NCBI RefSeq assembly: GCF_018873765.1
Contig: NC_057921.1
Location: 68,437,557 to 68,501,556, forward strand
Reading direction: 5' to 3'
DNA length: 64,000 nt
Origin: Telopea speciosissima
Taxonomy: Eukaryota > Streptophyta > Magnoliopsida > Proteales > Proteaceae
Numbering within the stretch: the stretch's first letter is position 1; every line of letters begins with the position of its first letter. The notes beneath the pieces were generated by a model. The model was not told the origin of the DNA and made no database searches. It was given only the letters and a program-made list of their open reading frames with translations. The translations under genes and the position numbers were made by a program. Shown piece after piece: positions 55,873 through 63,851 of the stretch.

Positions 55873-57989
55873 CTATTTACCCTGGTTCAGCCACTGCAAC
55901 GCAATCTCCGATTTTACAGTGCCAGCCTTGAACGTGGGATTGCTGCCACCACTACTATCTGAGACCGATGTCAGGGTCTGTTGCAGCACTTCTGATGGAG
56001 ATGAAACCGTGGTTGCTATGGGACTGCCCGTGGTATCACCACTAGTACCCCAAGCACCTGACATCAAATTGAAATTGAGCCCGCCGCAGCAACATGAGCT
56101 ACTCTTGCCACCACCACAGCAGCCATGCGATTTTGACCCTGCCATGCTCGGTCGCAGGACTTCAGCTAATGGGCCACCGGGTGGTGAAGGTGACCAGGGT
56201 GCGATTACTCCAAGACCCATTTGGATCTGTTCCCTTTCTTCTTCGTTGGAGACATTACCACCGGACATCGACAATGTAAGGGCAGACGGAGGCAGCTTCC
56301 CGTACGAACAAATTGACAACTTATTCCCTGCATTTTTGCTTGTGCTATCCCTAGCTGGGCTCGACCACCCGTCCATGAACCTCATGGGCGTTTGTCGATG
56401 TTCCGGGCTTGAAGGTTCACCTAAGGAAGTTACTTCGGGGTTCAGAAATTGGAAGCACCGATCGTTCAGATGGTGAGGTTCCGATCTTCCCCCATCACCA
56501 AAATTCGAGCAAGTGTCCAAACTCCGATCGCCTTCGTAAGGCCGTCGGAATTCAGCGGAATTTGCTTTCGATTGCATCAGTTGGGACCAATGTTGATTCG
56601 ACGCAGTAAGGGGAACCGGTTCCCCTCTCATCATCCAGTCCATACCCCTTCAAGCAGTAGAAACATAGCACAGTATTTTAAATAACAGCAAATATTCTGA
56701 AATTTGGGTTCTTAAAGCGATTACTAGGAACTCTTTCCAAACTCACCTGGGTTCCTTGTATGATGGAAGAGGAACAAGGTTATCAAAAGGGGAGGCCTTG
56801 AAATCTGGCCGGGATAAAAACCCTGAAAGCTGATGGGTGGTAGTCGTATTATTAGATTTAATGTTGGAAAAACTTGCAGACGCAGTCTCTGGATGCGTCA
56901 ATGGAGCCGAGCGCGTATTATAGCCTTCAATCTTCTTAATGTCGGTTCGTAGATGTAGTTCCACAGGCTTTCTTGAACGGGGACGGCCTCTGTGCAAGTG
57001 TCTCTCACAGTACTTCTGATCAGACGCCGCATCTCTCGAGCACCGCCATTTCTTCCCATCGGTTCTGCGGCACCTTCCTGGCTCAGGATCCATGCCGTTC
57101 GAGAATCGTAGATTGAAAGAAGAACTCCGATCAACTGAACATTAAAAAAAGGAGAAGATTAAAAAAATTTGAGGGAAATGAAAGGCAAAAAACAAAACCT
57201 AAAACAATACAATCATGGGATTCAAGAGGGATAGCAAGATTAAGACCAAGTTTTTAAAATGAGATAAAGAAGCCAATAAAATCACAGAAAACAACCCAAC
57301 CCAACCCATTTAAAGACGAGACAGGAAGATTTAAAAATAACGAAGGCAACGAAAATAGTCAAAGACATTAGGATTACGGGCAGAGTGGGGAGTAGCAACG
57401 GTGTCCAAAAGATTTCCGCAGATGGACATAAGGAGATTAGGAGGAACAGGCGCAGATGCCATCATGTACTTGTAGATCAATGCCTGTCGCTCAAGCTCCT
57501 GCCACTGTGGTGAAGTAAAAGGAAACCTCAGAGAAGGCGCCATAACTCCTGCTACAACACACGAAACCACATCTTCAGATTTTCTCTAGTATTGCAACAA
57601 CCAAAGCAAGATATAAAATTTCTGTGAGAGAGAGTGACAATTTTGAGAGAGAAGCGCAAGTCAGAAGCAATAAAGATAAAAAGAAAAACTATTGCTTCCA
57701 CAGACCTACCAGGGGATTCGAAGGCTGTAGTGCTAAAAGACTGCAGAGTCGTCGCCACTGACCTCCCACCAACACCACCACCACCTGCAGAACCAACAAC
57801 ATACCCATCCTCGGCGCCATTTCTATCCAGAGACCCTCCAGAAGAAGGAAGCAAAAGATTATGCTGCATCGTCATCATTTTATACGGCAAGGATTCAGTA
57901 CGTTGCAGTTTGTTAGAGCCAGAGACATGGCCACCACTCCCCACTGTTGCCTTGTCTACAATAAACCCAGTGCCGAGATCTATTTCCAT
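55873..57989 (-). CDS. GRF: Growth-regulating factor (GRF) transcription factor
   Basis: Four exons on the minus strand, in order 57989-57710, 57548-57378, 57134-56747 and 56647-55873, join with GT-AG introns and consistent phases into about 537 residues. The QLQ domain (about residues 102-137: [20 protein letters not shown], then PVPPNLL) binds the SNH part of GIF co-activators. The WRC domain (about 167-211) has the C3H zinc pattern C-x9-C-x10-C-x2-H and the basic [11 protein letters not shown] stretch, which gives DNA binding and nuclear import. The long C-terminal half holds [10 protein letters not shown]-like and Ser/Gly-rich segments and ends ALQWLNQGK. GRFs drive cell proliferation in leaves and other organs. 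The start MEIDLGTGF is the first ATG of the frame after an upstream stop. No lesion is seen. Which GRF number applies is not decided. Confidence 0.93.
56959..56979 (-). promoter_or_regulatory. miR396 target site in the GRF mRNA
   Basis: On the minus strand 56979-56959 reads CGTTCAAGAAAGCCTGTGGA plus a final A, the canonical GRF target of miR396, including the single unpaired base. It encodes the RSRKPVE part of the WRC domain in exon 3. miR396 cleavage at this site is known to limit GRF activity in mature tissue, so the same control is expected here. Confidence 0.92.
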
Positions 57990-59965: not shown

Positions 59966-60794
59966 AGATTGTTCCCTGCTACTTCCCTCTCTCTCTCCTC
60001 ATGCTAGTTTGCTACAGCCTCCGCGAAGAATAACTCAACGCCACCGCCTTACTTAATCCCTTGACAGTTGACAATAACAGCTACCGTCCATACGTTCCTT
60101 TGCATTCAATCCATTCTGAAAGTCACTGCGGAAAAAAAAATTTTAAAATAAAATCTGTGGAAACTGGAAAGAAGTAAATCCCAAAGAAAAAAGATGAATA
60201 ACCTAATAGAATGTTGGGAATTTGCCTTTTGCCTCGGGAGATGGATTGAGTGGGGTCATCCCACATGTCACATAGCCATTCCAAATACCAATGGTTGAAA
60301 TGGAAAAGGGTGGAGGGCTTAAAAGCCTATTGTGCCTCAGTACCCGCCTTGGTGCCCTAGGGGTTGGGGTATCGTGGCCAATGCTTGGTCCACATTATGT
60401 GGCATTTCCCTACCACAATTAGGGGCCGGCCAGCCATAGGTTGTTGAAGTGGACACTACTACTATTGTCCTCTCGAGGGTATCGAAAACATCGAGGGTAA
60501 TGGCATGACACGGTCCGTTGGTCACTTGGTTGGAATTCAGAAGTATTGGAGAGGAGTATTGGAGGGATCCGACTCCTATACTTCCAGAGCGGGTAGTATT
60601 TCCGTGCGTCCAGCCTTGTCTCACAAATAAGGAGATGAAAAGTACCATCTTACCCCTACCTGAGCAAGGGCAAGGCGATATTTTTCACTCGTCTTGTATG
60701 TGGGGCAAGGCTGAGCACCGCAGTACAACCCACCTTAGAAGTAGAGAAGTCTCTTCCGTATTGGAGTGAGAAGTATTAAGGTACTTTCTTTTTT
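59966..60794. other. Intergenic DNA
   Basis: No gene is recognised. Open frames at 60337-60648 (-) and 60518-60769 (+) overlap each other and show no domain. Confidence 0.35.
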
Positions 60795-61913
60795 GGGACA
60801 ATTACTGTCACAACCTTACACTTAGCCCACATTTATTAAAACTATCCTATTTTAAACTTCTTTTCTATCTTGCTTTTAAACTTTTACATCTCCTTTTATC
60901 GTCATATTTTTAAATACCCAGATTGTCCTTCCTTCTTACCTACTAACCTGTTAATCTATGTGACCTCTCATTCATCTTCCACTTTTTACCTCTTTTGTCA
61001 TTAAAATAGTTAAAAATGAAAGCACCCACCGACTTCTTCTCTCTCCCATTTTTTATTCTATTCAATATTTCTATTTAATTAATTTTTTAGTCAACATTTC
61101 ATCTTCATCGCTCTTCTTTGAAATTCGTATAGATCATGGTTCTAAGTATTGGTATTGTATCGTTCGCCTGTATCAAGATACGTACTATTTTTGCTAATCA
61201 TTGATATCGATACCATGCCGATACCGTGTCAGTAGCATGGTACGAATACTTTAGTAGCTAATTATTTATTAGTACATGTGTTATATTCTTTGGAGAATTT
61301 TCTTTAAAAAATTATATTACTATAATAAAAAAAAAAGGAACAACTTCTTATCACCAAAGTGGTACATCATTTAATGCCATTCAAATGACACCATCTCTTT
61401 TTGCTTGTCAAACGGTTTCAATATTGGGTGTCAATCAAATGGGTCCACCATTTAGTGCTCATCAAATGGGTCCATCACTTGGTGTCCATTTTGATTTTTC
61501 TATAGGCCTGGATTGGTTGAATCGGACAAAATTACCTTGAAATCTCCTTAAAAATGAGTTTTTTGACATTTTTACCCCTTGTTTGTATCGTGCTACCGAT
61601 ACAGTATTGGCATGATATTGATATTGGTGACTCCGTGACTAGCAAAACCGGTATGTATTGCCTAATACGGACGATACGATACCAATACTTAGAACCATAA
61701 TCTGTTCGAAGAAGAACGATGAGAATAAAATGTTGAATAAAAAATTAATTAAACAAAAAAGTTGAATGGAGTACAAATCGGGAGAGAGAAGAAGTGGGCG
61801 GGTACTTTCATTTTTTACTATTTTAATGACAAACAAAGGTGAAATAGTAGAAGATGAATGGTAGGTACAGGTTATTAGATGAAAAGAAAAGGCAATCTAG
61901 GTATTTAAAAATA

Positions 61914-63735
61914 GGGTAAAGTACACGTACCCCCCTAATAATGCATCAAATATTCCTCGTACCCCCTTAAGTGGTTCAATATTCCACATACCACCCCTCA
62001 ATATTCCACGTACCACCTTTATTTTACACCCCTAATGCCACTTAAGTCCACACCAGGTATTAAATGCTATAAAATGACAGAAACTATCTTTTCTTTTCTC
62101 TTTTAAAATTTGAAAAGACCTAATTGCCTTGACCTATTTGCTAAATTTTGAAAAGACTAAAATGCCCTCATCTTCCCCAATCATCGTCTTCTTTTACATA
62201 CCCCCACCACCACTGCCACCGCCACCGCCACTATTCTTATATTCTCAAGCGCCAGAGCTTCTTCTCCGGCAAACCAAGAGAGGACAACACTAGAGTTCTT
62301 GTAGATTGGACAGATTGAAGCTGTCTTCCGGATCCAAGAGCAGATCTGACTCTTCTCCGACAAACCTGACTCTTCCCGAATCCCAGCTTTGAGAACGCCC
62401 AATGACACTGTCACTATGACATGATCTGCCACCATTTCTGAACCATCATCGAAACAGACCTTCACAGGCCTCCTGCTGCTGCAATCCCCTTTATTCTCCC
62501 TCTCCAACGACCTCACAAGACCTTCGGGCTGCCACTGGATCCTCTTCACCTTCCTACCCAGTTGGATCAAACCCGTGGGAAGTGCAGACACTAGCCACTC
62601 TACAATGCTCAAGTATCTCTTGGCAATGGTGACCTCCTCACCTGGGAACCCACGGTATTCGCTCTCGGCATTGAAGTCCGGGGTTGAGAGGTCCCCTGCC
62701 GAAATATAAGTCCTCTCCATGTTCTCGTTCATCGCAAAGACGGCTTCTTGGAGCATTTTCGTGCTCCAACTGTCGTACCCTTTGACATCATCTGTACGGA
62801 AGCCTAGTAAGCTTCGATTGCTCGTCGAAGGAAAGAACCAATGTTGAGACCCTTCTTATTGAAACCCATTTTAAGAGCTCGAGCTGCAATTGCCTTGTAA
62901 TCGACATCGACACCGCCATTGTTGCTGCTATCAGTGGCTTCTGCTTCAAATAGCTTCCCCTGAGCGAACTCCATCATATTCCGGTAAAGAGCGGAAATGG
63001 GTTCAACGATAGAAGGTTGAAGCTGAAACCCACCTTCAGGGATGGTTAATGGGTCTTCAGCGAAACCGTCCATGCGCTCCCATGGCTGGTCAGACTCCAA
63101 CGCATGGATTTCTTGGGCAATCTTGTGAATTGGGCTTCCACCGATGCCATGGATCCAGGTGGCGCCCATCTCAATTTGGTCACCACAGAACTCCGAAGTG
63201 CGAATTCTCCCACCAATCCTGTCCCCTCCTTCCACAATGCAGAGCTCAAAGAGCTCTGTTGCAACGGTGGCACTATAGATCTTATAGGCAGCTGTAATCC
63301 TTGCCATTCCTGCTCCTATAATCACGATTCTGGGTTGCTTGACCACCATGGTTGCTGGTTTCACCACACATGGTTGCAGATCGGAGTTTACTACTTTATT
63401 TATAGTTACAGGGCACCGAATGAACTCGATCTGCAAGAATACAAGAATAGTGGCGGTGGCGGTGGCGGTGGCGGCGGTGGTGGTGGTGGGTATGTAAAGG
63501 AAGATGATGATTTGGGGAAGATGACGGTATTTTAGTTTTTTCAAATTTTAACAAATAGATCAGGGTAATTAGGCCTTTTCAAATTTTAGAAAAGATAAAA
63601 GAAAAGATAGTTTAATCATTTTATAACATTTAAAACCTTATGTGGACTTAAATAGCATTAAGAGGATAAAACAAGGGTAGTACGTGGAAAATTGAACCGC
63701 TTAGGGGTACGAGGAATATTGGGTGCATTTTACCC
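61914..63735. mobile_element. Pack-MULE carrying a PAO5-type fragment
   Basis: Inverted repeats of about 305-330 bp (about 61914-62246 and 63431-63735) start GGGTAAAGTACACGTAC and its complement. They contain ATTCCTCGTACCCC-type and (CCACCG)n blocks and end inward at ATTCTTATATTCT. Flanks TTAAAAATA and TAAAAAATA agree at 8 of 9. All interior sequence between the arms derives from a polyamine-oxidase gene on the minus strand. It is inserted in the right arm of the element at 60795-63842, whose left arm shows the uninterrupted sequence. Its TIR start resembles that of the Pack-MULE at 50833. Confidence 0.9.
62247..63430 (-). pseudogene. PAO5: Captured polyamine oxidase (PAO5-type) fragment
   Basis: The start codon is at 63349. 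The frame opens MVVKQPRIVIIGAGMA, then ELCIVEGGDRIGGRIRTSEF and GATWIHGIGGSPIHKIAQEI, matching plant PAO5-type flavin amine oxidases. It stops near 62804. A shift in frame follows, then VKGYDSWSTKMLQEAVFAMN, SAGDLSTPDFNAESEYRGFP and DHVIVTVSLGVLKAGI. Sequence then jumps to RKTASICPIYKNSSVVLSWF and AGEEALALENI, where the TIR begins. So about two thirds of a roughly 530-residue enzyme is represented, with an internal deletion and no C-terminus. The FAD-binding GxGxxG reads GAGMAR, losing the third glycine. PAO5 oxidises spermine-type polyamines in the cytosol; this copy cannot make that enzyme. Absence of introns agrees with the intronless PAO5 type. Confidence 0.9.
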
Positions 63736-63851
63736 TAAAAAATATGAAGGCAGCAGGATATGTAAAAGTTTAAAAGCAGGATAATATTAGAAAAAAAAAT
63801 TTAAGGTACTAAGTGTAATAAGGTAATAATAGTAATTACCCCTTCCTTTTC

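Follow-up and report, generated by a model that had tools for sequence, protein, structure and literature searches.

A Pack-MULE with a captured polyamine oxidase gene fragment nested in the arm of another long-TIR element

Here, we describe a nest of two transposable elements in the window, i.e., the whole stretch of 64,000 nucleotides that was analysed (G000:C6:68437557-68501556, in an 823-Mb genome with contigs labelled C1, C3, C6, C9 and so on). An inner element lies within the right arm of an outer one and holds a fragment of a polyamine oxidase (PAO) gene with a broken reading frame; the intact parent gene is on C3, and a second copy of the fragment, on C9, has the same breakpoints. With high confidence, we explain the nest as a Pack-MULE inside the arm of another long-TIR element, which is probably Mutator-like as well. 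Each component of this nest is of a well-known kind, and the captured gene copy looks dead.

Structure of the nested elements

The inner element is 1822 bp long (61914-63735), with the termini GGGTAAA at 61914 and TTTACCC at 63735. An inverted-repeat search and self-BLAST paired 61940-62245 with 63436-63729 at 81-88% identity by piece; the complete TIRs of 332 and 300 bp are about 81% alike and lie in the 100-500 bp range of long TIRs. The 9-bp TSD matches at 8/9 positions. In window coordinates, the parts are:

61905-61913, no strand: inner TSD, left copy TTAAAAATA
61914-62245, plus strand: left TIR of the inner Pack-MULE
62244-62347, minus strand: PAO5-type segment, derived from further downstream in the captured region, 93% identical to the C3 gene
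62348-62359, minus strand: 12-bp filler at the internal junction, replacing 165 bp of the gene (net loss 153)
62360-63373, minus strand: main PAO5-type segment (leader end, start codon and ~1 kb of coding sequence) interrupted by a frameshifting 7-base deletion and a premature TAG; its outer boundary is known to within ~10 bp
63374-63430, no strand: subterminal sequence common to inner-family members, with matches that abut TIR matches, e.g., on C1, C4 and C62
63436-63735, minus strand: right TIR of the inner Pack-MULE, ~18 bp shorter near its terminus than in the C9 copy
63736-63744, no strand: inner TSD, right copy TAAAAAATA

Similarity to the gene part of PAO loci is confined in the window to 62244-62347 and 62360-63380, within the inner element, and other matches in the window to PAO gene loci stem from repeats flanking those loci. 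Likewise, the C3 locus resembles the inner element only in the two gene segments. The first-pass annotation of this DNA had proposed a Pack-MULE with a rearranged PAO5 fragment, PAO similarity ending within the TIRs, and we recovered the gene segments, the junction and the confinement as well as the C3 parent. Its claim that nothing else lies between the TIRs went too far, given the filler and ~57 bp of family subterminal sequence. PAO segments, filler and subterminal sequence account for the interior in full, leaving it free of transposase, and in Pfam the two longest ORFs hit amine-oxidase families and no others. The inner element thus holds part of a non-TE gene; the parent gene is located elsewhere and is not flanked by the inner TIRs.

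The outer element (60795-63842) measured 1217 bp before the insertion, with arms of 449 and 430 bp that are 75-80% alike and a loop of about 338 bp; relatives have the same layout. Its parts are:

60786-60794, no strand: outer TSD, left copy TTCTTTTTT, 7/9 identical to the right copy
60795-61243, plus strand: left arm of the outer element
61243-61484, plus strand: low-copy 242-bp piece in the outer loop, a 94-95% match to C4:24308333-24308574
61582-61913, minus strand: outer right arm, loop side of the insertion
63745-63842, minus strand: outer right arm, end beyond the insertion
63843-63851, no strand: outer TSD, right copy TTCCTTTTC

The arms pair as 60905-61246 with 61582-61913 (75%) and as 60866-60911 with 63738-63783 (85%). 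Self-alignment therefore bore out the two nested long-TIR elements of the first reading, with its coordinates nearly exact, while its description of the outer element as almost pure palindrome overstates the likeness of the arms and passes over the loop. The outer TSD lies in a T-rich tract, and its two mismatches fall within the tolerance quoted in the available text of PMC4858842; reading by eye gave a perfect TSD in the relative L068 and comparable ones in a few more relatives. A typical outer-family copy has an arm of ~350 bp and a second unit of ~200 bp on either side of the loop. By contrast, the left side of the focal element has only ~100 bp of the second unit, followed by the 242-bp piece, for which we found a single close match, on C4, and five weaker partial matches on C5, C7, C4, C2 and C5. 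Outer arms were sought at the C4 match and none was found there. The low-copy piece in this loop makes it probable that the outer element, too, took up foreign DNA. A third nested element at 61144-61700 (beginning GGTTCTAAGTATTGG) was considered and set aside; we treat this unit as part of the outer family because all 29 loci from L052 to L080 carry at least part of it. It may once have been an independent element, since three of the ten loci L011-L020 (L017, L019 and L020) have the unit without outer arms. This survey of units and TSDs used 63835 as the outer end, and the joining of arms described below used 63842.

Two neighbours of the nest can be named. A growth-regulating-factor-like gene with QLQ and WRC domains occupies 55873-57989 on the minus strand of the window; its presumed start codon is ~2.8 kb from the nest, which lies on the upstream side. 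A LINE-type reverse-transcriptase remnant (L081:3556-4999), with a zf-RVT match and an RVT_1 match below the curated cut-off, lies immediately beyond the right edge of the window.

To place the inner element in its family, we scored 40 left-TIR candidates out of 1665 from a first look, which yielded 30 loci; with L003, the set comprises 31, namely 15 distinct elements with both ends, two other ends of those and 14 one-ended loci. Among the 15, twelve have complete 9-base flanks, and their TSDs match at 9/9 positions in six, at 8/9 in five, including the focal and C9 copies, and at 4/9 in one. Matches of at least 8/9 thus occur in 11 of 12 real elements as opposed to 6 of 168 cross-element pairs. 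The left copies of these 11 TSDs are 94% A/T, compared with 60% in the window. Interiors often differ among family members, with some pieces in common. Only at the focal locus, among the 31, do outer arms stand beside the inner element; L044 and L048 adjoin the second unit of the outer family and have no outer arms.

Parent gene, capture and second copy

A search of the host genome for a parental PAO5 gene, as the first-pass annotation had suggested, found an intact, intronless ORF of 570 aa on C3. Outside the junction, the focal fragment is identical to it at 1050 of 1087 positions (96.6%) and the C9 fragment at 795 of 822. A paralogue of the C3 gene on C7 is also intact, encodes 588 aa and is 84% identical. 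Both proteins are assigned to Amino_oxidase in Pfam; among proteins of solved structure, the C3 protein best matches a spermine oxidase and a peroxisomal N1-acetyl-spermine/spermidine oxidase. The PAO5 label was given at first pass and agrees with the intronless structure that we take PAO5 genes to have.

The second Pack-MULE (C9 6332874-6334407) has its own TIRs and a TSD matching at 8/9 positions. It is identical to the focal copy in the leader breakpoint, the internal junction and the 3' end of the capture and, most simply, the two copies represent one capture followed by transposition. At the internal junction, where the filler replaces gene sequence, a 10-mer with a single occurrence in the C3 locus is found twice, starting at 62346 and at 62366. 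We read the filler as templated and as a product of repair, a mechanism that we infer from the junction. Outside PAO, the focal and C9 copies are 86-90% identical, with 65 transitions to 14 transversions, whereas within PAO they are 95% identical, with 25 transitions to 15 transversions. The greater divergence outside PAO could reflect fast, methylation-driven decay of the TIRs or TIR exchange; the TIR tree, in which the focal and C9 TIRs do not group together, is weakly resolved and too star-like to choose between the two.

In the literature, a search for Pack-MULEs together with polyamine oxidase gave one paper, which to judge by its title concerns a wheat GDP-L-galactose phosphorylase family, and a search for Pack-MULEs together with magnoliids found no paper.

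Fragments of the C7 gene occur in a different repeat. Of the C7 PAO5-type gene, this dispersed repeat carries the 3' half together with 800 bp or more of the flank, 94.9% identical in the one copy compared:

L082:2654-5760 (= C6:31739153-31742259): C7-type PAO repeat; also at L006, L008 and further places

PAO matches of the C7 type suggest at least eight places, four of them with open frames of about 280 aa, and sharing beyond PAO was checked at three (L006, L007/L082 and L008). The dN/dS of one copy is 0.88. Direct or inverted repeats of at least 40 bp were not found in 9 kb, and no TIRs or LTRs were seen; the vehicle is possibly a Helitron, which is a guess.

Decay, folding and cytosine changes of the captured fragment

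In addition to the 7-base deletion and premature TAG of the focal fragment, the C9 fragment has an internal deletion of ~275 bp and stops. Against the parent, dN/dS is 0.75 (bootstrap 0.38-1.77) for the focal fragment and 0.93 (0.40-3.33) for the C9 fragment, compared with 0.28 (0.19-0.41) for the intact C7 and C3 genes over the same stretch; the fragment values come from small counts, both of their intervals include 1, and the focal interval narrowly overlaps that of the intact genes. Values of 1.02 and 1.24 were set aside as inflated by misaligned junction columns, which the estimates given here omit. As far as the sequences tell, the fragments are compatible with neutrality.

The outer element before the insertion has a strong folding potential, with z-scores of -36 and -27 on the two strands against 20 dinucleotide shuffles each and 349 arm-to-arm pairs in the predicted fold. 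In the predicted fold of the whole nest, the stems consist of outer arms and of inner TIRs, with PAO lying between them and pairing almost only with itself. The first reading had envisaged a long hairpin transcript as a source of small RNAs against the outer family and, by extension, against PAO5; the folding potential is upheld, and silencing of the parent gene is left unsupported, which is short of disproof.

C-to-T changes also differ between TIRs and PAO. Relative to the parent, and omitting junction columns, the focal PAO sequence has such changes at 6/92 CG, 6/109 CHG and 5/359 CHH sites. Relative to the majority of relatives, the focal TIRs have CHH changes at 10/106 sites on the left and 20/87 on the right (30/193 together), and the C9 copy has 7/97 and 10/96 in its TIRs and 3/268 in PAO. 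The raw CHH contrast is strong, with Fisher p values of 2e-10 in the focal copy and 8e-5 in the C9 copy. After scaling to the changes at A/T sites, it is 30:15 versus 5:10 in the focal copy (p 0.03) and 17:18 versus 3:7 in the C9 copy (p 0.47, not significant), with a pooled p of 0.02. This contrast is suggestive only, because the TIR baseline is a majority of relatives that had been selected by resemblance to the focal left TIR, rather than a true ancestor. At that strength, the CHH excess in the focal TIRs and not in PAO would speak mildly against small RNAs aimed at PAO5.

These data bear on whether the locus has a function. A 246-aa ORF with a PAO N-terminus (62804-63544) has its start within the TIR region and hits Amino_oxidase and NAD_binding_8 in Pfam, and the dN/dS interval still allows some constraint; however, with the frame broken in both copies, by a stop and a 7-base deletion in one and an internal deletion and stops in the other, and with dN/dS point estimates of 0.75 and 0.93, it is extremely improbable that the inner right TIR drives a chimeric coding gene under selection. 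It is also very unlikely that the outer or the inner element gives rise, via a hairpin transcript, to small RNAs that silence PAO5 genes. The strong predicted hairpin and the near identity of the fragment to its parent favour such a regulatory locus, but PAO lies between the predicted stems, the parental ORF is intact and constrained, and C-to-T changes in the focal PAO sequence (12/201 at CG plus CHG sites, and few at CHH sites) lack the CHH excess of the TIRs, a contrast that is weaker in C9 and suggestive.

Order of events and relation to known elements

When the right arm is rejoined across the insertion, the alignment is unbroken in 37 of 40 sequences (the focal left arm plus 36 loci out of 39 others); the exceptions, L017, L019 and L020, hold no arm and have zero matches to the rejoined right arm. 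L009 and L051 (focal) and L010 (the C4 locus) were left out of this comparison. The loci outnumber the independent outer elements, as pairs such as L013/L052 and L058/L071 each represent opposite ends of a single element. Bases 60905-60911 of the left arm find a partner both before and after the inner insertion, as expected of a TSD, and the overlap of the two arm pieces is the inner TSD. Since the outer arm is continuous across the insertion, as the first-pass annotation had claimed, the outer element as good as certainly inserted before the inner one. That annotation had also placed a capture elsewhere between the two insertions, and the existence of a second copy with identical breakpoints makes this part of its order plausible; it stays short of proof, because two copies do not reveal which is the older.

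Capture likely preceded the nested insertion. A somewhat unlikely alternative is that an empty inner element entered the outer arm first, acquired PAO5 there by gap repair and was then copied to C9; the shared breakpoints leave the ancestral copy untold, and the C9 copy is without the ~275 bp that the focal copy retains. However, nothing positive argues for capture in place, and the simplest history is that an already loaded element moved. Under this simplest history, we suggest that the first to insert, ~2.8 kb upstream of the growth-regulating-factor-like gene, was an old, long-armed and non-autonomous Mutator-like element. A non-autonomous Mutator-like Pack-MULE would have acquired the 5' part of the intronless C3 gene, probably via gap repair with template switching, in that way dropping a net 153 bp of gene and duplicating the 10-base motif. 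With transposase presumably supplied elsewhere, it would have transposed at least once to give the C6 and C9 copies, later than the outer element entering an A/T-rich site of the outer right arm and creating the 9-bp duplication. Both copies are now decaying.

Pack-MULEs as portrayed in the available portions of PMC3310237 and PMC4858842 are, like the inner element, non-autonomous and Mutator-like, with TIRs of 100-500 bp, TSDs of 9-11 bp, a gene fragment between the TIRs, a parent elsewhere and more than one copy; measured against those portions, there is no essential difference, and it is incidental that the insertion here struck another MULE. The nested-insertion MULEs in the accessible part of PMC3903597 held transposase sequences, which neither element here is known to hold. 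For animal Pack-TIRs, the sections at hand of PMC8277862 propose gap filling for single-copy captures and transposition after replication-fork switching for multicopy ones. This model fits the two-copy element with its templated-looking junction described here, although Pack-TIRs are animal elements and the mechanism here is deduced from one junction. In rice genic MULEs, according to the same portion of PMC4858842, TIRs and interiors were measured directly and differ in CHH methylation and 24-nt small RNAs; the focal element is similar in its CHH contrast between TIR and interior, which here is a mutational footprint at one element.

Altogether, the nest is a tidy example of gene capture: the parent is intact, its two daughter copies have identical breakpoints, and the junction looks templated. 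The nesting fixes the sequence of two insertions, and no new mechanism is added. Comparing context-specific C-to-T changes in TIRs with those in the captured gene could serve as a cheap test on many Pack-MULEs, with no need of methylome data. A broader reading, in which different vehicles took both PAO5-type genes (a Pack-MULE the 5' part of the C3 gene and the dispersed repeat the 3' half of the C7 gene) and the scars of the Pack-MULE record RNA-directed (CHH) methylation confined to its TIRs, is unlikely and offered tentatively. If it were true, one sequence would keep a readable history of which of its parts were targets of small RNAs.
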